A DNA stretch of 64,000 nucleotides. It comes from Sipunculus nudus. Lineage: Eukaryota > Annelida > Sipuncula > Golfingiida > Sipunculidae. The translations under genes were made by a program, and so were the position numbers. Positions 308 to 49,010 of this stretch are shown here, in pieces; positions within the stretch are counted from its first letter, which is position 1; the number at the start of each line of letters is the position of its first letter. The notes below the pieces were generated by a model that did no database searches, was not told the origin of the DNA, and worked only from the letters and a program-made list of their open reading frames with translations. The DNA lies in assembly GCA_026874595.1 (NCBI GenBank), contig CM049314.1, forward strand, positions 39,663,229 through 39,727,228, in the 5' to 3' direction.

Positions 308-900
308 GAATCATACAGCAACTGACTTACCTAGAGGCTAAAGCGCATTGTGCTACAAAAGGGGGGCTACCGATACCAAGATCTAATAAGGAACAAGATG
401 AACTACAAAGAAAACTTTACAGATTTGGAATCATGTCTGTCTGGATAAGGGGGGAGAGACACTCTCTAAATGAGTGGACGTGGGTAAATGGAACAGAGAA
501 TGGTATCTTTAAAGAATTATTGTAGTTGAAACAAGAAAATAAAAATATTTGCTTCATACAAAGATTAACATTTCTTGATGGTAAAGTTAATTAAAAAGGC
601 ATATGAAAGAAATTTACTAAAAAGTTAACTTCTATTTAAAACGGCATATATAGATTTACAAATGAAGAATTTAATTGCACCTGTTTTCATTGTTTCTATG
701 CATTATAAGGCAATATTTATGTAAATATGAACGTTCCTTTGAAAAAAACGAATTTAATCACACTCAGTTTTCCTTTCTAGTACAAGGCAACTTAAAGTCC
801 CACCAGAAACACAAATGTGCTGGTTTTGATCAGAATACAAAGAGCATTTTTACAACCGAATGCTCGAAGAAGGTCCCAGGACACGTATGTGAAGCAAAAC
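308..900 (+). CDS. CTLD1 exons (308-502 and 781-900)
   Basis: The first exon starts after a TATTCAG acceptor and encodes a CTLD core: LTYLEAKAHC (helix 1 and first cysteine), then SVWIRGE and EWTWVNGT (WIGL-like and W-W strands). The second exon carries the late cysteines and ends with the GHVCEA signature typical of CTLD C-termini. Donors are GTATCT and GTAAGT. No EPN/QPD-WND calcium site is visible, so sugar binding by this domain is doubtful. Confidence 0.75.
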
Positions 901-3900
901 GTAAGTTATACTTTGATTTCTCCTTTTTATGTTCGGTCAAGTAGAATATTACGTTCCTTTAACATCACAGAACATTTATACTTTTAATACATGCATTTTT
1001 AGACTGTGAGGATTGCTATAAAGATTTTGGATGGAAGGGACAGGTGTGCAGGAAATTCAGAGATAAATGTTTCCTGTTTCATTGCGACGAAAAGAACTGG
1101 TTCAATTCAAGGTCTGCCTGTGGTAACGAAAGCCAAGATCTTGCAATCGTCCAGAATAGCGATATGATGACATGGCTTTCTGAGCTACAGTTTTTTTGTA
1201 AGCAGTTCTGGATAGGATTACGTAGAGAAACATGGAGAGGACAGGGTATGTATAAATTATTTAACGATTGGTTTACTCTTTTGTTTAATTGTTGTATTTA
1301 TCCCAGAGTATTATAAATATAAAGATATGTTGAGTTAATTAAAGTAGATCACGATATGCTGGTATATTTAATTTGCCTGTTATGAATTCTAGAGCTTACT
1401 GAAGAAAATACAAGTAAAGATTTATCAGGTAGTTGGTGGAAAGATTACAGACCTCGCGGGGAAATATAGACCAAATGATAAAAATAATATTTCAAGGCAG
1501 TCTATAAGTTCGCTCTTTCATCATTTAAAATATGGAACCAGGCCTAATTTAAAAAAAAAACATCATTTCTTCAGAAGTTGCTATAATTTGGTATTAGTAT
1601 TACTATATATAAAATTTATGAAACTCACAAGGAGAGCCTTTGTTTGCAAACTGGGGAGAAAACCAACCAGCCAAGGGAGAGTGCAGGGTATTGACAAGTA
1701 TAGACGGAAGAACTTTCTGGGCTTCAACTGATTGCAATAATAGAGGAAACACCATATGTTCAGTTGGGGAAGGTATGTATGTCTTCAAATGCACGAGCAC
1801 ATGCATTTTGTTATGGTTCCGGGGTTATTTTATTTTTTTCAATGACTGCTCATTAAAGTATATTATGTATGATAATGTACATACGAGGCGCAAACGTATT
1901 CGATATGGTTTCAAGGTGTGTGAAGATCATGTATTTCCCTTGGTGAACAGGTATTTCCACCCACGGATATTATTCAACTCCTACAGCTAGAAAGACAGAA
2001 GATGGAAAATCATCTAGTAAGATTTACAACATTGTATTGATAATCTTAAATATGAATTTATAACGAGTTGTCCGGATTTACAGCTCTAATTGATATTACC
2101 TATAATTTTAATATTACGTTTTTCCATGTATCCACGTATCTAGATTATTCATTCTTATTAATAATTACATTGCCATTGTTTATTTCTACATCTATGAAAA
2201 TTTGCATATTCTTATGTATTTCAGACTTGACTGCAATAATTATTCCGGTGTTAATTTGTATTTTGCTGTTTGGATTGGGTATTTTTGCTTTCATTCTCTG
2301 GAAAAAGGTAAGTATTCAGTAAATTTTAATTTCAAATTCACCTTCGACTGCTGATTTTGCTTTGGCAATTATAGCCATTTCATAAATTGTGCATTCCATG
2401 CGTATTGCAGACAAATCTACTGCGACGAAGAAGTGTAGTGAGAACAAGTATTGGCGAAGATAGGATGCGTAGTGAAGAAGAGAAAAAGAATAATGAGGAA
2501 GATACGCCACTTATAGGTTAAGCATCCTCAGATATGATTAACACACGGCCTTTTGTTAGAAAGTAACGTAACTATTTACATAATATATACACTTTCCTAA
2601 AACCCTCTGTCTTCTCTATAAATTCAAAGGTTTCTTTTGATATTTTCCTTATTTCCAGGCGTATCAACACATGAATTACAAGCACGTCTCTCGGTAGAGT
2701 CAGATACATTGTCCCGTGTAAAAACATCGAAAGGTGACGAAATGACCCTCGTGGAAATGGACAAGATTTACACTGACGTCGATATCTCTTTCCAAAAACA
2801 GAAGTTAACCTTCGACCAGACATTTTCACAGGTACACAACACATGACACCCAAAAGTTGTGTTGACTTAACAAAAGAACAACAACAGAAATGTCATAAAA
2901 ATCTAGTGTACACTAAGGTCACTATGTATAAAAATAGTGGGCTAAATATAATTCATACGACACTGCGTAACCAAGCATATAAATAGCATTCGTGACCGAG
3001 CTTACGTTAGAATCAGTTCACGAAACTATTAAATAATTTATTACCTCCGGCAACGAATGTGACAGGAGGCAAGGGGGTAAATGGTGTTTTTGTGTGTCTG
3101 ATCCATAGTTAAACTTTTTTCCGCAATTTTTAACCTTCATGAGCATAATACTGAAAGTTATGGTCCCATGACGTTTTGGTGATATCAAAGATATAGAAGG
3201 TGGGTGCTGTGACAATAACATCAAAATAACGTCTCGCAGTCCTGACCAACTGGTATTTGCTGGCTGCTACGGCCTTTAAAGCGAACTGTCTAGATCATAT
3301 GACCCACTTCTGGTAAAGCCAACTCTCTTCTTGGGTAAATCCATAGTTGGCAAATTTCCTACTTATAAATTATTATTTGAAAAAGCAACTGACGAGTTCA
3401 TCAATATATTCTAAACCTAGGCTAGCCTTTGTAGATGGATGGCGTGGCTGCTCTCACGCTGACCTGTCACAGTATTTTGTCACCATCTGATATAAAGATA
3501 GAGGTGTTTATTGTAAGAAGTGACTTAATGCATTGGGTTGCTTTAACCAGTCATAGTAGAATAACTAATTTAAAGGTATACACATTTATTGATGTAGTTT
3601 TTTGGATTATCATTTTGAGATAAGCACTCAGGATGTTTTTAAAAGAAACATGAAATTCAGGTCTGCATAAATGTGCAATTACAAATATGTATAAGCATCT
3701 TATTACAGGCTTAATAACAACGTATGGAATGCTAAAATTGTGTATGTAAAACAATAGAACTGTGTATGGTAAAAAAGTCGTAAAAGCGGAATGAGGTACA
3801 CGGATGACATATCTGTATGTTCTATTCGTAAATAAATCTTGAAAATCACAAAATAAAGCACGGTATTTTGGTCTATGTTACTATATTGTACCAAACTAGA

Positions 3901-5519
3901 TCATTCATATACCATGTTATTTAATGTCGATGCAGATATTTGATGCTCTAGCGCTAAATATATCATATGATATGCGGTTATGTCTTGAAATTTCGTATTT
4001 ATTTAACATCGAATATTTGAATGAGGGTGTTTCAGAGTACAATATATTGAGCATGATATTGAAGCACTTCTTAATTATTCGATTGACGCAAATATACGAG
4101 CCATGTATTTAAATAAAAAAGATGACACGTGGCATTGTGTCAGTTATTGTATCTCAAGTCCACTTAATTACACTCCGAAAAATATAGCCAATGTTTTCAT
4201 CTATACCACATCACTTTATATGCTTCATTTTTCCGTGTTAGGCCTGTACTGTTGTCTTTTTTACCGGTCGTACGGACCTACCAAACGAATTTGTTATATA
4301 TATATTAATTAAAGAATTTTAAAAGGAAAAATCATACTGCCATTTACTAATAACACTTTTTTTCTGTACTCAGATCAAGCAGACCAAAGTGAAGCGACTT
4401 CTAATATCTGGTAACAATGGCGTTGGCAAAACAATATTGGCTAGGAAGATCTTACGAGAGTGGTTGAATTCTTTAAAATCAGACTATTCTGCAAAAGACT
4501 TTCGGTATGTCATCTTCATTCCCCTGTCAAAAATCGTTGGGGACTGGAACTTAAATGATATTTTGGGAAATATTTTCAAACTTAATGAGAAAATTGCCAG
4601 TGACATATACAAGGATGCAATTGAAAATCCAAATGGGACTTTAATAATATTGGATGGGTATAATGAGTTTAAACATATGTCGGATAGATGTTCTGAAATA
4701 CGTGGAATAGTTGAAGGGAAGTTGCTTCCCATGGTCAAAGTGTTAGTAACCTGCCGTTTCCCAACCAGAAGGTACCTTTGTGAAGGATGGTCGACATTTG
4801 CAGAGACCTATGAAGTTTCAGGCTTCCAAGAAGAGAAAGTTAAGACTTATGTTGAGAAAAATCCTTCTAAAATAAGTGATGATATTTCAAAAATGCTGAA
4901 AAAAGAGCCACTTTCTTCTCTTGCACGGTACCCACATTTGTTGCGTTTTCTCTGCGATGAACTGAAAGAGGATATGGGTTATCCTGAAATTTATGATAAA
5001 TATCTGGAATATTCTTTCAAACGTTATAACCTGAAGTACGGCTCAAACAAGAACACTGTCTTTAAATCAATTGGATCGGTCCAGCTGGAAGATGATGTGC
5101 CAAAGAAATTAGAAGATGAGGAATTCAAAGATCGTGTGATGATCGAAATTGGCAAAATGGCCATTGATAACATTATTAAAAGTAAGAAAAAAACCTTTTC
5201 TTCCGGCGAACTGAAAAAAATTTCCGAAACATCGCTGCAACTTGGTTTCCTCGTTTTCTTTGATGAATCAACAATGGGTTTTCCTATAGATGAATTTCGT
5301 GAATATTTTTCTGCGCACTTCCTGGCCATCACTGACAAAAAAAGTAGATTAGAATACTTTGGAAAGATGAATTTGAAAGCGTCTTTGGGAGATTCGTCCA
5401 ACAAAATCATGCAGTTTTTGGGTGGGCTTGTGGTAGAAGATGAGCATAGAAAGAACCAATTGAATAATGATTTGAGTGAATTTTCGCAATTGAAGGAAAC
5501 GTTTTCAAAATTTTGCTGA
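308..5519 (+). CDS. Transmembrane C-type lectin-NACHT receptor, copy 1 (3' nine exons)
   Basis: Exons read by splice sites and phase: 308-502, 781-900, 1003-1245, 1632-1772, 1951-2016, 2225-2307, 2411-2516, 2659-2831, 4374-5519. Phases run 1,1,1,1,1,0,1,0 without a break and give about 756 codons; the start exon lies left of the window. Domains in order: CTLD1, CTLD2, short stalk, one transmembrane helix, charged cytoplasmic linker, NACHT with C-terminal winged-helix region, then stop. There are no LRRs after NACHT and no death-fold domain. Known biology: NACHT proteins are STAND NTPases that oligomerise on activation, normally as soluble cytosolic sensors. Inference: a type I membrane receptor coupling extracellular recognition to NACHT assembly. 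The same exon order recurs at 42889-39153, which argues against chance joining of two genes. An alternative is two separate genes split in the 1.5-kb intron before 4374. Confidence 0.75.
1003..2016 (+). CDS. CTLD2 and stalk exons (1003-1245, 1632-1772, 1951-2016)
   Basis: The 1003 exon encodes CFLFHCDEKNWFNSRSAC and FWIGLRRE, a clear CTLD N-terminal half. The 1632 exon gives NWGENQPAKGEC, WASTDC and NTICSV, the C-terminal half with its cysteines. QPA occupies the usual EPN/QPD place, and WAS replaces WND, so the canonical Ca2+/sugar site is incomplete. The 1632 acceptor has a weak pyrimidine tract but is the only one that keeps phase. The small 1951 exon encodes a Ser/Thr-rich stalk. Confidence 0.72.
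2225..2831 (+). CDS. Transmembrane and cytoplasmic linker exons (2225-2307, 2411-2516, 2659-2831)
   Basis: The 2225 exon encodes a hydrophobic helix of about 23 residues (AIIIPVLICILLFGLG and on) bounded by an N-glycosylation sequon (NLT) outside and WKK inside, so the C-terminus is cytosolic. The 2411 exon gives a basic then acidic juxtamembrane segment (TNLLRRRSVV, EEEKKNNEEDTPLI). The 2659 exon encodes a linker with the motif EMDKIYTDVDIS. Its equivalent in copy 2 is FIDEVYTNMVLKDIS, so this linker is a family feature. The junction to the NACHT exon is phase 0. Confidence 0.7.
2832..4373 (+). other. Intron 8 of lectin-NACHT copy 1
   Basis: This 1.5-kb intron separates the linker exon from the NACHT exon, bounded by GTACAC and CAG. 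About 3035-3250 is less AT-rich than its surroundings and reads like a degraded interspersed repeat (starts near TTACCTCCGGCAACGAATG), but no family is assigned. No further exon-like open stretch with good splice sites is seen. Confidence 0.45.
4374..5519 (+). CDS. NACHT exon of lectin-NACHT copy 1
   Basis: A single 1146-bp terminal exon after a CTCAG acceptor. It shows Walker A GNNGVGKT (4410-4433), Walker B TLIILDGYNEF (4638-4670), a sensor-1-like strand LVTCRFP, the conserved proline helix LARYPHLLRFLCDEL, and a winged-helix-like C-terminus (LGFLVFFDE, IDEFREYFSAHFLA). Walker B has Asn where many NACHTs have the second Asp (LDGYNE). The protein stops about 60 residues after the winged-helix region, with no LRR or WD repeats, so ligand sensing must lie elsewhere, consistent with the lectin ectodomain. 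The exon has no initiator ATG near its 5' end, as expected of an internal splice product. Confidence 0.88.
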   Translation: MKQTKVKRLLISGNNGVGKTILARKILREWLNSLKSDYSAKDFRYVIFIPLSKIVGDWNLNDILGNIFKLNEKIASDIYKDAIENPNGTLIILDGYNEFKHMSDRCSEIRGIVEGKLLPMVKVLVTCRFPTRRYLCEGWSTFAETYEVSGFQEEKVKTYVEKNPSKISDDISKMLKKEPLSSLARYPHLLRFLCDELKEDMGYPEIYDKYLEYSFKRYNLKYGSNKNTVFKSIGSVQLEDDVPKKLEDEEFKDRVMIEIGKMAIDNIIKSKKKTFSSGELKKISETSLQLGFLVFFDESTMGFPIDEFREYFSAHFLAITDKKSRLEYFGKMNLKASLGDSSNKIMQFLGGLVVEDEHRKNQLNNDLSEFSQLKETFSKFC

Positions 5520-11152: not shown

Positions 11153-12673
11153 TTAAACATGCGTCTCACTACGGGGACTCAGATAATCTGACTTTCTTAT
11201 CTCTACTAACTTTTTGTTGTTTACGGGAATGAAGTTAACCTGGGGAATTCCCGCTGTGTCACATGAAATGCTGCACTCTGTAATATCTTCATATACAGGT
11301 TGTCTCGATGATACTCTATTCGTAGCATCTTCTTCCTCTGGAACTGGTGGAAGTGTGCGTCGTGATTCATGTAGTACCGTTTTCTGTTTTACTCGACATA
11401 TACATACAATGGTTGTTACCATTGCTACCATCAATAAGGTTCCTGCATATGCAATTATCGCAGGCACTGAGAGAAAAACAGATATCTTGGGCATATTCGT
11501 TGTACCAAATTTTTTAAAGATGTATCTTTCGGGCAAGTAAATTTCTCTGATGGATTGGCCGTTTTCATTTTCTGCGATGCAGAAATAGCTTATGTTCCAT
11601 TTAGATACAATAACTGAGAACGACACTTTCGTTTCAATTCCATCCTTTCTTCTTTGTGTCATGATTGAATGGCCATTTTGTTCTTTTATCGTAATAACTG
11701 GAACCGGGTTTCCTGTAGCCGAGCATTTTAGTACATTGCTATTCGCAGTGAAAAATTCCGTAATAGTTGGCATCTGGCAAATCATATAGCTTCCAAAGAC
11801 CCGTTGAATGGAAGCCTCTGAGAGAGTTAGATTTGCATATCTAATATAACTGAGTCCTGTGTACTTATCATTGAAAACTTTCTCGACTATGTTGTTGCTG
11901 CTGTAGTTAAGTCCAAACGATGATTTACAATCAAACTGTAGTGGGCATTTTTGTGATGGTATTGTTAATCGGTTCACTTCCTTACATGCACAGTTAATGT
12001 TGTTTCCCCCCATGGAAACGTAAAATGTGCATGATCCATAAAAAGGGATGCGATTAAGCAAATTATAACTGACATCCAACCACTCCAGTAATGAAGGCCA
12101 ATCCACCGTCGTTTCAATAACTTTAATCTTATTATTACTCAGTCGCAGGTTCCTTAGGAGCTTAAGTGGCATAAAAACTGTGCTCTCTAACTTTGTTATC
12201 ACATTGAAACGCAAGTCTAAATATTCTAAACCTGTAAGTCCATTAAACACACCATACTCCAAGGATGCCAAGAGGTTATGTCTTAGACACAATATACTCA
12301 GATTATGAAGGCCGAAGAATCCTAGTGGTTTTACCTCAGATATTCCTCCATAATCCATAATGAGTTGATTTAGATTCCCCAGACCATAAAAGAAATTGCT
12401 CTTGATTTTAGTAATGTTGTTCTTTGAAAAGTCTAAAATTTGTATCCGCGGTGGAATTATATCAGACAGCATAGAATCGATTATGGTAATCTGGCACCCG
12501 GTTAGGAGTAGCTCAACAGTCGCTGGCATTATATGAAGATTCTCCTTTGACAGACGATGATCCCAATTGTCCTTGCAAAGGAAACACTGATAGGTGCAGC
12601 CGTAAACTCCTCCCGGCAATATAACCGTTGCCACTATAACCATAACCCACAGGCCCCTGAAGGAAAGGGACAT
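11153..12673 (-). CDS. LRR-Ig transmembrane receptor, gene 1
   Basis: Intronless, 506 residues from the Met at 12673. This Met is preferred over an in-frame Met at 12757 because it opens a signal peptide (MSLSFRGLWVMVIVATVILP) and lies about 40 bases downstream of a TATA-like box. Order: Cys-rich N-cap (residues 26-33), about six LRRs (46-225; for example LEYLDLRFNVITKL), LRRCT cysteines (226-255), one Ig domain (Cys about 317 and 370, NPVPVITI, YFCIAENENG), TM helix (407-437) and a cytoplasmic tail of about 70 residues. The tail has a PxxP motif (RRTLPPVP), PVYEDI and DYLSP. This is the LRR-Ig adhesion/receptor class (LINGO/AMIGO/LRRN-like layout); the ligand is unknown. The gene faces the lectin-NACHT gene tail to tail and is paralogous to 47409-48974. 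Confidence 0.88.
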   Translation of the reverse strand: MSLSFRGLWVMVIVATVILPGGVYGCTYQCFLCKDNWDHRLSKENLHIMPATVELLLTGCQITIIDSMLSDIIPPRIQILDFSKNNITKIKSNFFYGLGNLNQLIMDYGGISEVKPLGFFGLHNLSILCLRHNLLASLEYGVFNGLTGLEYLDLRFNVITKLESTVFMPLKLLRNLRLSNNKIKVIETTVDWPSLLEWLDVSYNLLNRIPFYGSCTFYVSMGGNNINCACKEVNRLTIPSQKCPLQFDCKSSFGLNYSSNNIVEKVFNDKYTGLSYIRYANLTLSEASIQRVFGSYMICQMPTITEFFTANSNVLKCSATGNPVPVITIKEQNGHSIMTQRRKDGIETKVSFSVIVSKWNISYFCIAENENGQSIREIYLPERYIFKKFGTTNMPKISVFLSVPAIIAYAGTLLMVAMVTTIVCICRVKQKTVLHESRRTLPPVPEEEDATNRVSSRQPVYEDITECSISCDTAGIPQVNFIPVNNKKLVEIRKSDYLSPRSETHV

Positions 12674-12710
12674 GGTCTCAAGGCAAGTTATTGGTGTCCC
12701 CGTCTCAAAG

Positions 12711-12722
12711 TTATTATAAAAA
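12711..12722 (-). promoter_or_regulatory. TATA-like box of LRR-Ig gene 1
   Basis: On the minus strand TTTTTATAATAA lies about 40 bases before the chosen Met. The paralogous gene at 48974 has its TATA box at nearly the same distance, which supports both start choices. Confidence 0.45.
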
Positions 12723-12757
12723 GTTCCTGACTGCACGATCTCTTGCACTTGATACAA

Positions 12758-13184
12758 TGGTGATGCAAAATAACAAAACTTTTTATGTTATTCATATTGA
12801 TGACAACATTGTCGAAATAACCAGAAACCACATGATATGCTATATAATTATCATAAATAATTCTGATCACAATAGCAAATAATTCTTTAAAGTGAAAAGG
12901 AAATTTTGTTTTGCAATCATCAATATATCTCAGTTACCTGCATGACATTAATACCCATGCTAGTAATTACCAGTTCTGGAAATTAACATTACCATAATAC
13001 AATAACCATAGGAATATAATATCTTATATCTGCAATATTTCCCAATGCGTATTATAGTTACGGTACTGATTTTGCTAGATGAACCATGTTATCTTTATAA
13101 ATATGAGTGTTTCAATAAAGCTATTTCTATCAACTGTTAAAACCACTGATCATCATAAAATCACCCAAGCGACTTTCAAAGAGG

Positions 13185-24925: not shown

Positions 24926-26300
24926 TCATGAACAACTCGGTAAGCAATCAGAAAGTACATTGTCTTTCCCTTTAATATGTCTTATTTCAAGATTGTAATC
25001 CTGTAAAAACAAACTCATTCTGAACAATCTTTGATTTTTACACTTCAACTTGTTCATGAACGTGAGTGGATTGTGATCACTGAAGACAATGAAAGGCTCG
25101 ACTGATGAAGTAACATAAACTTCAAAATGTTGCAATGCCAAAATCAAAGCCAAACATTCTTTTTCAATAGTGGAGTAGATTTTCTGGTTTGCATGAAACT
25201 TTCTTAAAAAATAACAAATTGGATGATCTATGCCATCATTGCCTTCTGGTAACAACACAGCAACAGTAGCAGTATTACTAGCTTCTACAGCTAACTTAAA
25301 AGGTACCGAAAAGTCTGGAGCTACTAAAACTGGTAAACTTTGCAGAATTGCTTTCAAATTCTGAAATGCATTCTCAAACTGAACATTCCATACAAACTTT
25401 TGTTCCTTCTTTAACAAATTAGTCAAAGGTTCAGCTACATCAGAAAAATAAGGACAAAACTTCCTGTGGTATCCATCCTTATCAAGAAAACGCATTATTT
25501 GCATTTTGTTTTCTGGTCTAGGAAATGCAGAAATAGCACTTATTTTAGCATAATCAGGTTTTGCTTGACCCTGCCTTACAATATGACCCAAAAACGTAAC
25601 TTGTGCATGACCAAACTCAGATTTAACTAGATTTACGGTCAGACGTGCTTCACTGAGTCTTTCGAAGGGGTCGCGAAGAATTTGCAGGTGTTTCTCCCAG
25701 GTGTCGCCGTACACGATAAGTTCATCAATATATGCGTCGCAGCCCTGAATGTCCTCACCAAACCATATGGATGAGGCGCTGGAATGTGGCTGGCGAGTAC
25801 TTCATGCCAAAAGGCATAACTTTATACTAGTACAGTCCTTGCGGCGTCGCAAATGCGGACACTTCTTTCGCTCGTTTTGTCAGCGGAACTGGCCAGAATC
25901 CTTTCAGCAAGTCAAACTTGGAGTCATATCTGGAGCACCGACTCTATCAATTTAATCATCGATCTTCGTAATCAAGAACGTGTCAGTCATGGTGATAGAG
26001 TTCAGTTTTCGAAAATCTGTGCACATACGGTAACTTCCATCAGGTTTTGGCACAGGAATACATGGTGAACTCCAGTTACTGTTACTAGGTCATTGTCCAG
26101 CAAATATTGAACCTCATCTTGTAGATACTTTTGCTTATCTGGATTCAGTCTGTAAGGATGCTGCTTGACTGTGCTTGCCTTGCCAACATCGACGTCATGG
26201 CACAATATGTTAATTCGCGTTGGAATGTCACTAAACAAATGTTCATAATTCCGCAGCAGGTTCTTGAGATTTTATTGCTGTTGTGCGGTAAGGTGTGACA
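24926..26300 (-). pseudogene. Reverse transcriptase-RNase H of the gypsy element
   Basis: The RT start is seen in HDVDVGKASTVKQHPYRLNP (about 26200). The finger/palm region 26000-25745 is broken by several frameshifts. The catalytic box reads AYIDELIVYGD (about 25735), with Glu for the second Asp of YxDD. From 25714 one open frame of 262 residues covers the thumb (TFLGHIVRQGQ), connection and RNase H (STIEKECLALILALQHFEVY, FSDHNPLTFM, IRHIKGKDNVLSD). Confidence 0.8.
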
Positions 26301-39152: not shown

Positions 39153-40243
39153 CTATTCTTTACCAAAATTGAGAATTGTGTCCAGATCCTTGGTCAGAGA
39201 TTCTGTCCTTTTAATTCTAGAAATGACCTTACGTCTCAACTTTGAATAACATAAGTAGTATGCCAGGAAAAACTTGTACAGCATCGGATGAACAAAAGTC
39301 ATCAACTCATGTTGGTGATCGTAATGCAGGAAACCTAGTTTGAGAGTATTAGGCATTCGAAAATGTTTATTTACGTCATATATTGAAGCGAAACATCCAT
39401 TCTTCTGACTCATGTACACCTGAAAGTTTGGTAATGAGGACACCACTAGATGTCCAATTTCAAGGAGTTCCTCATTATAATGGTCAAGTCTTTCTTTTGG
39501 ATCCGTATAAGAACCAGGCACGTTGTACTTATGCTCAAACCTAGAACAGGTACATTTCACAATCGTCAGAAAGAGCTCCAATTCTTTACCTGAAAGGCAT
39601 TCTTCGGTGCTCCATTGGTGGCAGAGGTCTCTTAAAAACACTGGAATCCTACATATATTGATTAAATCCTTGTCAACTCCGAGTTTTTCAGTCATGTCAC
39701 TTCCAATACTTTTTTGAATAAACGGACATTTCGAAATGTACATAGATATTTGTTCTTTGCTAAATCCTTCAACTTTATACTCTTTATCATGAGTATAAGC
39801 ATCCTTTCCTTTATAATATGACCCAGGGCTCCGACAGGTAACTATCTTTGTTGCTTTCGGCATGTATTTGTTTCCTATGATATCATGGATGTCTGGAAAA
39901 GTACTTTTGTCAATTTCGTCATAACCAACTATTATAATCAAAGATCTGTCAGGATTGTCTTCTATGATTTCCATATATGTTGCAGCATCCTCATGTTTAA
40001 GCAGTGGTTGATTAATTATGATCTGAACAAGAGATTTCTTTTCCCTAACATCGCAAAGTATTACAGGAAGGAGGTATGTGAAGGATTTCAGCCTTTCACT
40101 TAACTTTAGGAAATATTAGTCTCCTTTGGCTTCTTGGATTTCAGGTGGCCCCAATCGATCATGATACGTTTCATCAGCGTTGACTTCCCTGTTCCACTGG
40201 CACCTGTTACAATAATGTTTTTTGGAAAAACGCCGTTTGCCTT
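39153..40243 (-). CDS. Copy 2 NACHT exon with one-base deletion
   Basis: After a TTTTAG acceptor: Walker A TGASGTGKS, then a stop after ETNIS. The neighbouring frame resumes at LKLSERLKSF and continues to the end. Walker B reads RSLIIIVGYDEID (Gly for the first Asp). Also seen: IVTCRSP, ICRIPVFLRDLCH and a winged-helix-like end (LGFLHYDHQ, PMLYKFFLAYYLC). Exon length 1091 is one less than a multiple of three. Confidence 0.75.
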
Positions 40244-40515: not shown

Positions 40516-41280
40516 TTCACTGAATATATCTTCATACCCATTGGGCAACTCCATTTCGTTTGAAATGTCTTTTAAGACCATGTTTGTGTAAACTTCGTCG
40601 ATGAATTTCTTATTTTTTTCTGTTGATTTCCACAATGAAACCATTCCATGATTACGCCGTATAATCGTGTTTATATAGCTTAAAAGTTCATTTATTGTGT
40701 GTTCATCTGTAAATAAAACAAAATTGTGATTTCAAAATTATTTTTTTAAGACGTGTACACTATCAAACTTGCCCAATAGTCGTTTAATGGAAGTAACCAT
40801 GAATTCAACTCCATAGTAAAAACGATTTGGTATTATTTTGCACACGTATATTTAACGTGTATCCCATATACGTGTCATGGAGATTGTTTACCTTTAATTC
40901 TTTCATAAGGGAGTTGTGTTGATTTTTTTCGTTCGTTGTTTTTTCCCGTTTTTCTCGTTTTACAAGTATTTTCTTGTAAATAATATTTTTATATATAAAT
41001 ATTAACTATGCCATTGGTTTCCAGTTAAACCTTTTACACGGTACAGGAGATAACGGATATAATATATGCCTTTCTTTTCCGACGCAGCTCTAGATGTTGA
41101 GTGTTGTAGCAATCTTAAATTTAAAGAGAAGGCAGTGTGTATAACAGAGGTCGATTATGTCATAGATAGTAAATGGGGAAATACTTACTTTCACAATGAG
41201 GACCATGAAAAGGAAACCAATTATAAGAAATGATACTGATGTGGATAGTGCAATAACAATCACAATCGTCATTCGATTTC
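40516..41280 (-). CDS. Copy 2 TM and linker exons
   Basis: 41280-41189 encodes a TM helix (IVIVIALSTSVSFLIIGFLF) with the same 1-to-0 phase as copy 1. 40706-40516 encodes the linker with FIDEVYTNMVLKDIS and GYEDIF. A phase-0-to-1 exon is required between them; the best candidate, 40972-40892, is strongly basic (RKTGKNNERKKS) but one base out of phase. Confidence 0.6.
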
Positions 41281-41754: not shown

Positions 41755-42308
41755 CTTTTGGCATGCATAATACGTTAAGTCTTTCACTACACATTCTTGA
41801 GCGCCATTGTCCATCCACTGTTTCCAAACTAGAACAATACCGGCTGATGGTTCATTTATTTTCCACGAAGAAAAAGTGACCAGGCTGTTATCTGCGTGTA
41901 ATCACATGTGGTTATATGATTGTAAAAAAAAATCCTTTCTAAATTAAAAAAAATAGGCTTTTTCATGATACATATATATATATAATGTTTGTATATATTT
42001 ATTTTTCATTGAACTTTAATAATTAGCTATTCATTGTATTCCAAATATATGAATGAAAAAATACAAACCCGTGTTAAACCAATCTTCACGTCTGAGTCCG
42101 ACCCAAAAATTAGTACAGCTGAATTCAGCCGCGGTCAAACAAAGCCGGACATCTGTACTTGGAATTATTGCTAAATTCCTTTGATTTGCGATACACTCAT
42201 CCCTCGAGTTAAACCAACCAAGGTCATCACAATAGAAAAGATAACATGATCTCCCCTTTTGTCTACATATAAAACTCATCCTATGAAATTGACTGAAGCT
42301 GAAACAAG
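41755..42308 (-). CDS. Copy 2 CTLD2 exons
   Basis: 42308-42069 encodes CYLFYCDDLGWFNSRDEC and NFWVGLRREDW, closely matching copy 1. 41891-41755 encodes SWKINEPSAG and, one frame over, CSSLETVDGQWRSRMC and NVLCMP. EPS sits at the EPN/QPD position, and WRS replaces WND. The exon length (137) is one short of phase consistency. Confidence 0.65.
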
Positions 42309-42424: not shown

Positions 42425-42889
42425 CGGCAACTTCGAAAATGTGGCCCAGCTTTTTCTTTGTGCAGTCTGCTCCATGGATATTGCCTGTGGCCTGATAGAA
42501 ATAGGAACACTGTCCCTTTTTCGTTGAATTGATATATCCATCTAAAGGAAATTATTTATGTTTAAATGAATAACACCCTATTAGGAAACTATTATTCATC
42601 AATACGTTGGAGTGGCTTCACTTTCTAACAGTACTTTGTTTTTATCATTTATTGTTCCTATAAAATATTCCTTCTGATTTCTTACCCAGTCGTGTTCCAT
42701 TTGTCCAGGTCCGTGCATCTAATTTCTGCCGTCTAGCCTTCAACCATATTGACGGCAGTTCCCTATTCTGCATTTCCTGAATATAAGAATGTTGTTCCTG
42801 TTTGAAAAGGGGCAGGGGTAAGTCGTCCACCGAATTACAAACCCCTTCTGCTTCATTATAGGTGAGCAGCGACTCCGAAATATAAAACC
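42425..42889 (-). CDS. Copy 2 CTLD1 exons
   Basis: The first exon encodes SLLTYNEAEGVC, SIWLKARRQK and ARTWTNGT; the second encodes QCSYFYQATGNIHGADC and ends GHIFEV. Both are phase 1 to 1 as in copy 1. Loss of the penultimate conserved cysteine would leave one disulfide unpaired. Confidence 0.65.
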
Positions 42890-43520: not shown

Positions 43521-44045
43521 AAATTGGGTTCTCTAGGGGAACGACTATGAATGTAAAGGCCAAGAGCGTTGGAAACATTTCCAGTGAGTTTAGCGTGATA
43601 TCCAGGAGCAGTTTTTCAAAGGCCATCCACTGGTCGTGAGGACGTAGTTTATCTGTTTATAACTCAATTTTTGATTACAGTGACCGCATTGGAACAATTG
43701 CACTGGAGTTAAACGTTTGAATAATGTTAAAACTCATGTCTTAAGTTTCATGGTCCAACAAACCGTCAATGATATCGTTCTCGAAACCCTGCAGTTTAAT
43801 TATTGCTATATTGCCGATATCCGTTTGTAGTTACACAGGTTCCGTCAAACTAAGAGGCATATGTCGTCATATCCTTGTGGTTCATACCTGAGACATAACA
43901 GTCTTTACTTTCAGTATCACACGAGTGACATCTACATCAATGACTTTTATCTCACAGCCACTTAGGTCAAGTATATTCAATGCTGACAACAAAGGTGAGA
44001 CGCCTATCAGTAAAAAATGTGATTGGTGCGTTTAGAACATTCTTT
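43521..44045 (-). pseudogene. LRR-Ig receptor pseudogene (LRR part only)
   Basis: Collinear with 48286-48865 of LRR-Ig gene 2. Shared blocks: GTAAATTGGGTTCT, CATATCCAGG in variant form, GGCCATCCACTGGTCG, CATTGGAACAA(C/T)TGCACT, AACCCTGCAG-like, CACTTAGGTCAAGT. One LRR is deleted near 43780, and numerous stops and indels break the frame. The Ig, TM and tail parts are absent. Confidence 0.75.
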
Positions 44046-47408: not shown

Positions 47409-48974
47409 TTAGTCAACTGGGCATAAATAGTCTTCGTCTTGCTTTTTCTCTTTCAGTAATACCTTTTCGGAAGGTGATCCCTCCTTTCCCTGTCCAATGT
47501 CAAGTATCTTATTCTCATCCGATTCTTGTGGGAGGGTTTCTATATATTGATAAACATGGCAGTGTTCCTGATTTCGTTCAGATTCCTGACCAAGTAACTC
47601 CAGATACGCGGCAGGTTGAGGTGGAGCCGGAAGGGGTCTCTCGGTGGAATTACGATTTCTGCAAACTTTGACAGCCATTCTGACCACGATCGCGATAACA
47701 GCCCCAATGACGCTACACAGTCCGAGATAACCTCCATATGTTAGAATAGGTTGTAACAATGACGATTTGTCCATGTTAGTCATTGTAGACTGGTACTTTA
47801 AAGAGCCCCGTGATGTAGTATTTTCTGTCATACCATACTGGTCTTTTTCTTCTATTGTTTCAATGGTGTTACCTATTATGTTAGTTGCAAGGCACGTAAG
47901 ATTGGACGTTCCATCTCTAATATCAACGGACAAAGAGGCGATATGGTTTTCTTCACTAAAACTCCCTTTCGTTGATACAATTATCTTGGAAGTTTTTATA
48001 AAAAGCTGTGGCTTTGGCACACCATCACTCATGCAGGTTAAATTATTCCTGTTCAAAGCAAAATATATGATTTCCGGTTTTTTGCACACGGGTAAATTTA
48101 CAAAATAACTAGAGCTCAATGTGAAGGCGGTCTGCAAGGATCGCGGGTCTTGTGTAGTTTTCTGGTAAGGTTCTGTTGTGTTCCTATGCAATGATAGAGT
48201 TGACAGCAAATATGTTTTACAGTTTGAAAACAAAAGGCATTTACTTCCATATATGGCATTTACACTTCTAGCGCACTCGCAGTAAATTGGGTTCTTTAAG
48301 AGGTTAACGCTAAATGAACAGGCCCCAAGCGTTGGGAATAGTTTCAGTGAGTTTCCCGTCATATCCAGGTACAGTAAATTCACGGGCCATCCACTGGTCG
48401 CGGTGACGTTATCTATTTTGTTATGACCCAAGATAAGATTGGCCAAAGACCGTATTGGAACAACTGCACTTGTATCAAACAATTGAATTTTATTTAAGCT
48501 AACATCTAAAGTTTCAAGTTTCAACAAACCGTGGAACATGTTATCCCTTAGATTTGTCAAATGGTTACTACTCAGATTCAATACCTTGAGAGATGGTAGA
48601 CCATAGAAACCCTGTGCTTCAATTATTACTATATGGCCTTTATCCATTTGTAGTTGCAAAAGTTCTGTCAAACCAAAGAACGAATGACTGCGAAGCCTCG
48701 TGATTTTGTGTCTGGAGAGAACTATTGTCTTTACTTTTGGTATCATGTGAGAGAGATCTGCATCAATCCCTCTAATTTCACAGTCACTTAGGTCAAGTGT
48801 CTTCATTGCAGACATCAAAGGCAAGTCTCCCTCTTGTAAAATGTGATTCCAGCTTTTAGAGCAAATGGCACATTCCTTTTTGCATACACTGCCTTTGCTT
48901 CTAAAATAAAACAGTTGTAGTGTTAGAAAAATAAGCCATGCCGGTTGTCGTACTGTTCTTTGCTGATGAGACAT
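47409..48974 (-). CDS. LRR-Ig transmembrane receptor, gene 2
   Basis: Intronless, 521 residues. Signal peptide (PAWLIFLTLQLFYF), Cys-rich cap (31-38), about six LRRs (58-225; LKVLNLSSNHLTNL), LRRCT (YCECARSVNA, Cys 232-261), one Ig domain (NLTCMSDGVPKPQ, SNLTCLATN; Cys about 314 and 361), several N-glycosylation sequons, TM (about 406-433) and a tail of about 85 residues. Tail motifs: proline-rich ERPLPAPPQP, then YLEL (Tyr 457), YQYI (Tyr 475) and DYLCPV (Tyr 516). YxxL and YxxI 18 residues apart resemble an ITAM but are wider than the usual spacing. Paralogous to gene 1 over the whole extracellular part. Lies upstream of lectin-NACHT copy 2 in the same orientation. Confidence 0.9.
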   Translation of the reverse strand: MSHQQRTVRQPAWLIFLTLQLFYFRSKGSVCKKECAICSKSWNHILQEGDLPLMSAMKTLDLSDCEIRGIDADLSHMIPKVKTIVLSRHKITRLRSHSFFGLTELLQLQMDKGHIVIIEAQGFYGLPSLKVLNLSSNHLTNLRDNMFHGLLKLETLDVSLNKIQLFDTSAVVPIRSLANLILGHNKIDNVTATSGWPVNLLYLDMTGNSLKLFPTLGACSFSVNLLKNPIYCECARSVNAIYGSKCLLFSNCKTYLLSTLSLHRNTTEPYQKTTQDPRSLQTAFTLSSSYFVNLPVCKKPEIIYFALNRNNLTCMSDGVPKPQLFIKTSKIIVSTKGSFSEENHIASLSVDIRDGTSNLTCLATNIIGNTIETIEEKDQYGMTENTTSRGSLKYQSTMTNMDKSSLLQPILTYGGYLGLCSVIGAVIAIVVRMAVKVCRNRNSTERPLPAPPQPAAYLELLGQESERNQEHCHVYQYIETLPQESDENKILDIGQGKEGSPSEKVLLKEKKQDEDYLCPVD

Positions 48975-49010
48975 GTTTCAGGTATCAGCTGATGAACAAA
49001 GTTTCTGTTC

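Follow-up and report, generated by a model that had tools for sequence, protein, structure and literature searches.

A 64,000-nucleotide window of the Sipunculus nudus genome, part of contig 9, carries near its start a plus-strand gene (gene 1, positions 308-5519) in which two C-type lectin-like domains (CTLDs), a transmembrane (TM) exon and a NACHT domain are joined in one open frame. An initial sequence-only reading of the window had proposed a lectin-NACHT gene at this position, and that proposal is borne out by ten exons that join in phase, by Pfam domains and by the recurrence of the same order of domains elsewhere in the genome, including a second copy on the minus strand of the window (gene 2, 42889-39153). 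The probable product of gene 1 is a single-pass type I membrane receptor of a large family, consisting of a signal peptide, CTLD1, CTLD2, a TM helix, a juxtamembrane segment, a linker, and a NACHT domain with a winged helix, and acting in the manner proposed below. The genome searched for relatives comprises 1.43 Gb in 153 contigs.

In the splice model, the exons of gene 1 are bounded by AG and GT throughout, their phases are concordant, and the spliced product is an open frame of 768 residues with no internal stop and a TGA at the end. The junction between the linker and the NACHT exon, which had been proposed from the letters of the window, is in phase across 2831-4374. The earlier count of nine exons needs correction, as there are ten in the window plus a leader exon outside it. 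This candidate signal-peptide exon lies 5' of the window at about -127 to -61 (L009 9802-9868) and contains an ATG and encodes a hydrophobic leader; its phase-1 donor matches the exon at 308, and a TATAAA lies about 95 bases ahead of the candidate. It is probably the missing 5' end, and with it gene 1 is probably complete. Some splice sites are less than ideal: a simple splice score ranks neither the donor at 503 nor the acceptor at 1003 first (the neighbours that out-score them would disrupt phase or domain), the acceptor at 1632 reads AAG, and the donor of the signal exon reads GTTTGT.

The order CTLD1, CTLD2, TM, NACHT given by the sequence-only reading agrees with the phases and with the Lectin_C and NACHT matches (Table 1). 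A Pfam scan of the whole protein found the NACHT domain but did not list Lectin_C, which was found in both CTLDs once they were scanned singly. Across the family, Lectin_C was matched at E up to 1 by six of six CTLD1 sequences (best 4.6e-9) and seven of seven CTLD2 sequences (best 4.5e-11). The closest solved structures to the CTLD profiles are DEC-205, PLA2R and the mannose receptors, and those closest to the NACHT exon are NLRC4 (E 2.8e-5) and NLRP3 (E 7.8e-5). Walker A and the sensor Arg are retained in the NACHT alignment, and the modelled ectodomain contains 14 Cys residues and four N-glycosylation sequons. As had been claimed, no leucine-rich repeat (LRR) or WD family was found by the Pfam scan of the 768 residues, the protein stopping past the winged-helix region; the same scan, at E up to 1, detected no immunoglobulin (Ig), death-fold, BIR, TIR or kinase family. 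The Pfam listing for gene 1 likewise contains neither DED nor TRADD-N, with the presence of an NCOA6-type TRADD-N model in Pfam unchecked. A dileucine-like patch noticed by eye in the juxtamembrane exon looks strict in gene 1 only and is given no weight.

The association of CTLDs with NACHT domains extends far beyond the window. Because the genome searches score the best candidates only, the totals that follow are minimum figures and not free of bias. Two NACHT searches, with 99 and 108 matches, yielded 137 loci once same-strand matches less than 3 kb apart had been merged and two partial NACHT rows (C15:8601054 and C15:8601786) excluded; the search with CTLD2 of gene 1 scored the best 150 of 613 candidates. 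With the first CTLD query, 33 of the 137 NACHT loci had a CTLD match on the same strand within 15 kb upstream. The three remaining orientations gave 1, 2 and 1, and 300 shifts of the CTLD positions gave 1.9 on average and at most 6. Addition of a second CTLD query raised the count to 36 of 137, with 3, 3 and 1 in the remaining orientations and, over 300 shifts, a mean of 2.3 and a maximum of 7. Of 46 matches to the linker exon, 29 follow a CTLD that lies on the same strand no more than 10 kb upstream, the three remaining orientations giving none (mean after shifting 0.77, maximum 4); with the second CTLD query the count was 30 of 46, and 1, 0 and 0 in the other orientations. NACHT loci tied to a CTLD either directly or via a linker, including genes 1 and 2, number 50 of 137, of which 32 are on contig 17; in this count the linker-to-NACHT step was allowed up to 70 kb, on NACHT-crowded contigs and without a shift control. 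The CTLD-NACHT unit is found again on nine numbered contigs, with its orientation almost always the same. A chance joining of open reading frames in gene 1 was rejected because order and phases recur across the genome. Many CTLD2-related matches at C9:42.4-43.1 Mb, and at many places on contig 12, have no listed NACHT nearby and are either other CTLD genes or neighbours of unscored NACHTs.

Ten loci (L047-L056) were read individually; they were chosen for an upstream CTLD match, so the share of them that fits the order cannot be taken as a rate for the genome. Nine of the ten contain a CTLD, then a TM exon, then a NACHT match. All five of L047-L051 have CTLD2, a hydrophobic exon and the linker, with a NACHT match downstream, and four also have CTLD1, the stretch of L047 starting at CTLD2. 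Among L052-L056, which were kept out of profile building, four of five have CTLD1, CTLD2 and a TM exon in order with NACHT downstream, and three of these four have the linker. In all seven genes read, the best-scoring TM exon is phase 1 in and phase 0 out, and all six of the top NACHT acceptors are in phase 0. Other junctions are less uniform: the linker donors of gene 2 and L048 are not the top sites, and the linker acceptor of L051 ties. Gene 1 has a good candidate for a signal-peptide exon, L050 has candidates and L048 a single weak one; none was found for gene 2, nor in L049, L051, L055 and L056, each with less than 900 bases upstream. The nearest NACHT relatives of gene 1, C3:40722674 and C3:40821238, lie about 98.6 kb apart and are identical over the 360 codons compared, so that they are either a recent duplication or an assembly duplicate.

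Gene 2 repeats the order CTLD1, CTLD2, TM, linker, NACHT. Compared with gene 1, identity is 34 and 35% in the CTLDs and 31% over an aligned NACHT stretch of 168 residues. The NACHT matches that flank the break in its frame have E values of 2.9e-5 (just under the Pfam cut-off) and 4.4e-9, the top splice sites past CTLD2 disagree in phase with the following exon, and no exon was identified with confidence between the TM and linker exons. With its frame broken and these phases discordant, gene 2 looks decayed, or its exon model is wrong there. Beside it, at about 43880-43999 on the minus strand of the window, is a sequence that reads by eye as a damaged duplicate of the LRR gene at 47409-48977.

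Table 1. Exons of the two lectin-NACHT genes in the window
Feature	Position	Strand	Evidence
Gene 1, CTLD1, first exon	308..502	+	Phase-compatible; Lectin_C in CTLD1, E 1.9e-7
Gene 1, CTLD1, second exon	781..900	+	Phase; Lectin_C
Gene 1, CTLD2, first exon	1003..1245	+	Phase; Lectin_C in CTLD2, E 1.9e-9
Gene 1, 36-base exon within CTLD2, phase-symmetric, possibly optional	1393..1428	+	Phase
Gene 1, CTLD2, last exon	1632..1772	+	Phase; Lectin_C
Gene 1, short stalk exon	1951..2016	+	Phase
Gene 1, TM exon, phase 1 in, phase 0 out	2225..2307	+	Phase; TM-exon screen
Gene 1, juxtamembrane exon, rich in basic and acidic residues	2411..2516	+	Phase
Gene 1, linker exon 5' of NACHT, DxIYTDV pattern	2659..2831	+	Phase; linker match
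Gene 1, NACHT and winged-helix exon, includes stop codon, no LRR	4374..5519	+	Pfam NACHT, E 2.2e-19; nearest structures NLRC4, NLRP3
Gene 2, CTLD1, two exons (42889-42686, 42541-42425)	42425..42889	-	Lectin_C, E 3.3e-5
Gene 2, CTLD2, two exons (42308-42069, 41891-41755)	41755..42308	-	Lectin_C, E 0.025, under curated cut-off
Gene 2, TM exon	41189..41280	-	TM-exon screen; splice phases
Gene 2, linker exon	40516..40706	-	Linker match; splice phases
Gene 2, NACHT exon, frame broken near 40115	39153..40243	-	NACHT match either side of the break

The sequence-only reading noted that gene 1 has no LRR or WD repeats; as a picture of the family this is too narrow. At nine loci, seven of them CTLD-linked, the NACHT frame extends beyond the length of gene 1 with repeats that look LRR-like by eye. 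A Pfam scan of the tails of three relatives matched NLRC4_HD2 in each (E 0.0044, 0.012 and 6.4e-6, all under the curated cut-offs) and LRR_14 in one of the three, L030 (E 1.3e-6, also under its cut-off), and no LRR at E 0.1 in L018 and L023. The usual member may thus have the order CTLD-CTLD-TM-NACHT-LRR, with gene 1 as a short form; a family altogether without LRRs is unsupported, and the class is therefore not defined by their absence. Selection was estimated from the 45 closest NACHT pairs listed. Between close relatives with dS of at least 0.06, dN/dS is about 0.14-0.38, in keeping with constraint; two pairs that are almost identical, with very few changes, gave 0.78 and 0.89.

Several points weigh against the receptor reading of gene 1, beginning with the fact that its evidence is genomic sequence throughout. 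The rise from 36 to 50 linked loci is weaker than the directly controlled counts, as the linker-to-NACHT step had no shift control. One of the chosen loci, L053, has CTLD2 and a NACHT match without TM or linker. The TM-exon filter made errors in both directions: it gave stray matches on the opposite strand of L054, one extra match in L049 and some matches in three of five contrast loci, and it missed the TM exon of L051, which was found by splice-phase reading. In gene 1, AATAAA motifs at 3831, 3852 and 4112 lie in the intron 5' of the NACHT exon, so that shorter, lectin-only transcripts are possible. Gene 1, without a close relative, is in none of the dN/dS pairs, and some of these pairs are between NACHTs without a known CTLD, such as those of the contig 9 genes. 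The motifs of the domains also depart from expectation. The canonical Ca2+/sugar motif of C-type lectins is EPN or QPD together with WND. In seven CTLD2 sequences (the exon boundaries of the relatives are approximate) the corresponding triplet is EPS in four, EPT in one, QPA in one and absent in one; a canonical sugar-binding lectin is thus unsupported, no EPN or QPD triplet having been found in the seven, and "lectin" may be a misnomer. The winged-helix His, which holds ADP in the closed state in work on NLRC4, is kept in 16 of 16 aligned relatives and lost in gene 1, and Walker B of gene 1 reads DGYNE, with Asn as the second acid in place of the Asp of DE in the relatives. On both counts the switch of gene 1 may be altered or dead.

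Part of this evidence would fit two adjacent genes, one for a surface lectin with CTLDs and a TM helix and the other for a separate cytosolic NACHT protein, kept as a pair through repeated duplication. In a contrast set of five loci on contig 9 that resemble genes for NOD-like receptors (NLRs) with LRRs, the linker precedes NACHT in four and no CTLD was found in any of the five, so that the linker-NACHT unit also occurs without CTLDs; some linker-NACHT ties on contig 17 span 14-53 kb, and the AATAAA motifs of gene 1 lie in an intron. However, the TM, juxtamembrane, linker and NACHT exons of gene 1 are concordant in phase, the phases of the TM exon and of the NACHT acceptor recur at every gene in which they were read, and the unit keeps almost always one orientation over nine contigs. 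We consider the two-gene arrangement quite improbable. Alternative splicing, which would yield a short surface lectin as well as the full CTLD-TM-NACHT receptor and use NACHT in some cells or states only, draws on the same internal AATAAA motifs and on the long pre-NACHT introns of some loci; it is compatible with the receptor reading and in our view unlikely.

A further possibility is that gene 1 is a decaying or decoy member, the longer-tailed relatives being the working receptors. The missing LRRs, the lost winged-helix His, other sequence changes, a long branch in the tree and the broken frame of nearby gene 2 all point in that direction, but gene 1 remains open over ten exons and keeps Walker A and the sensor Arg. 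This explanation, which would leave the receptor reading intact for the family, appears doubtful.

Relationships among the family members are not simple. In a sample of six genes from contig 17, L035 and L028 share 94% of a CTLD2 stretch and 84% of NACHT, whereas the NACHT domain of L034 is 92-93% identical to those of L035, L027 and L042 and the CTLDs only 22-27%. Thus the relatedness of CTLDs and that of NACHTs disagree among these genes (L057-L062 with L027, L028, L031, L034, L035 and L042), which would fit an exchange of ectodomains; the CTLD-NACHT tie on contig 17 crosses long introns, so the hint of exchange may be wrong. The NACHT tree intermixes CTLD-linked and unlinked genes. A single origin of all CTLD-linked NACHTs was rejected on this mixing, with the caveat that the labels are incomplete, since C6:28204780 and C17:3216659, marked as unlinked, were later tied to a CTLD. 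It is conceivable, though on balance somewhat unlikely, that surface NLRs form a large repertoire, dispersed over the genome and still duplicating. In such a repertoire each CTLD pair would be joined by splicing to a NACHT-LRR switch, and members would trade ectodomain and NACHT parts, giving many surface sensors and one type of intracellular switch.

The exon order, phases, domains, genomic recurrence and constraint on the NACHT exons of relatives were read directly; from them we predict a single transcript and protein, its position and topology in the membrane, its ligand and its output, as follows. The CTLD pair would bind an extracellular ligand, such as a microbial surface or a protein, and binding would cluster or reorient the receptor. 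The NACHT domains at the membrane would then exchange nucleotide and assemble, and the assembled NACHTs would recruit partners, a step proposed because gene 1 showed no death-fold, TIR or kinase domain of its own. By analogy with the sea-cucumber receptor AjNLRC4, discussed below, the likeliest output would be uptake of the bound particle. Animal NLRs are mostly regarded as intracellular sensors; if the receptor reading is true, an animal lineage has turned to NACHT on a large scale for signalling from surface receptors. The dozens of similar loci suggest a large, little-described set of surface immune receptors. They make up a concrete gene set for asking how NACHT can be switched from outside, and bear on whether animals without antibodies maintain large germline repertoires of surface NLRs.

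Two open frames elsewhere in the window, at 11153-12784 and 47409-48974 on the minus strand, encode LRR membrane proteins (Pfam LRR_8) with tyrosine-bearing tails, and the former also has a weak Ig_3 match. At 24929-25801, minus strand, a piece of a retroelement matches reverse transcriptase and RNase H (RT_RNaseH, E 2.3e-27).

Among solved structures, the CTLD profiles of the family are nearest to the mannose receptor family (DEC-205, PLA2R, MRC1). These type I membrane proteins likewise carry several CTLDs, more than gene 1 does, and have a short tail without NACHT. Compared with C-type lectin receptors in general, gene 1 matches the CTLD fold by sequence but not the canonical Ca2+/sugar motif. 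On the intracellular side, the NACHT domain with its winged helix resembles those of the cytosolic NLRs NLRC4 and NLRP3, which have no ectodomain, and of the NLR-LRR-like genes of contig 9, which share the linker but in which no CTLD was found. Of the features of the NLR class, gene 1 has NACHT with Walker A and B, while C-terminal LRRs and an N-terminal effector domain (death fold or BIR) were not found; and while that class is cytosolic, the signal-peptide and TM exons predict a membrane protein.

The nearest published relatives in overall plan are compared here within the available text of each paper. The nearest precedent with experimental tests is AjNLRC4 of the sea cucumber Apostichopus japonicus, a receptor reported to sit in the membrane, with NACHT on the inner side and Ig domains on the outer, and to drive uptake of Vibrio (PMC8699970). 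Like gene 1, it places binding domains outside, a TM segment between, and NACHT inside, without CARD and without LRR; unlike gene 1, it has Ig domains rather than CTLDs and two predicted TM helices, and is described as a single gene of an echinoderm (PMC8699970). Going by its predicted topology, gene 1 has the ectodomain-TM-intracellular NACHT plan of the AjNLRC4 type, without its Ig domains. A second sea-cucumber gene, AjNLR-new, is reported to have the opposite topology (PMC13133943). NLRs with TM helices are described from sea anemones (PMC5094078) and sponges (PMC12909245), with NACHT-LRR proteins predicted to be membrane-bound; those of anemones differ from gene 1 in having 3-5 N-terminal TM helices (PMC5094078), and the available text mentions a CTLD ectodomain in neither group. 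A CTLD-TM-NACHT protein is also not named in the corresponding text of surveys of ctenophores (PMC11797021), cnidarians (PMC8260672) and Aplysia (PMC9334734), the last reporting only 4 NACHT proteins, nor in that of accounts of placozoans (PMC6321704) and the hard clam (PMC7831173) or a marine review (PMC9505182). No such protein occurs among the literature matches listed, which are mainly open papers with supplements outside their scope, so that annotated cases may exist.

In the oyster Crassostrea virginica, about 50 TRADD-N proteins are described whose ectodomain is Cys-rich and which have a TM helix; inside are DED and TRADD-N and a variable region that can include STAND NTPases (PMC8195603). 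This bivalve expansion is similar in size to that of the gene 1 family and likewise combines an ectodomain, a TM helix and an intracellular immune module, STAND NTPases being the NACHT superfamily; it differs in that the ectodomain is not described as a CTLD in the available text, and in having DED and TRADD-N inside, which were not found in gene 1. Of the published cases compared here, this oyster set is the closest parallel in size and plan. The sequence-only reading had put gene 1 forward as the best candidate in the window for an undescribed system. With AjNLRC4, the TM-bearing NLRs and the oyster set already described, that claim holds in part only: the general kind, surface binding domains with an intracellular NACHT, is already known, and the CTLD version is, going by the matches listed, the new part.

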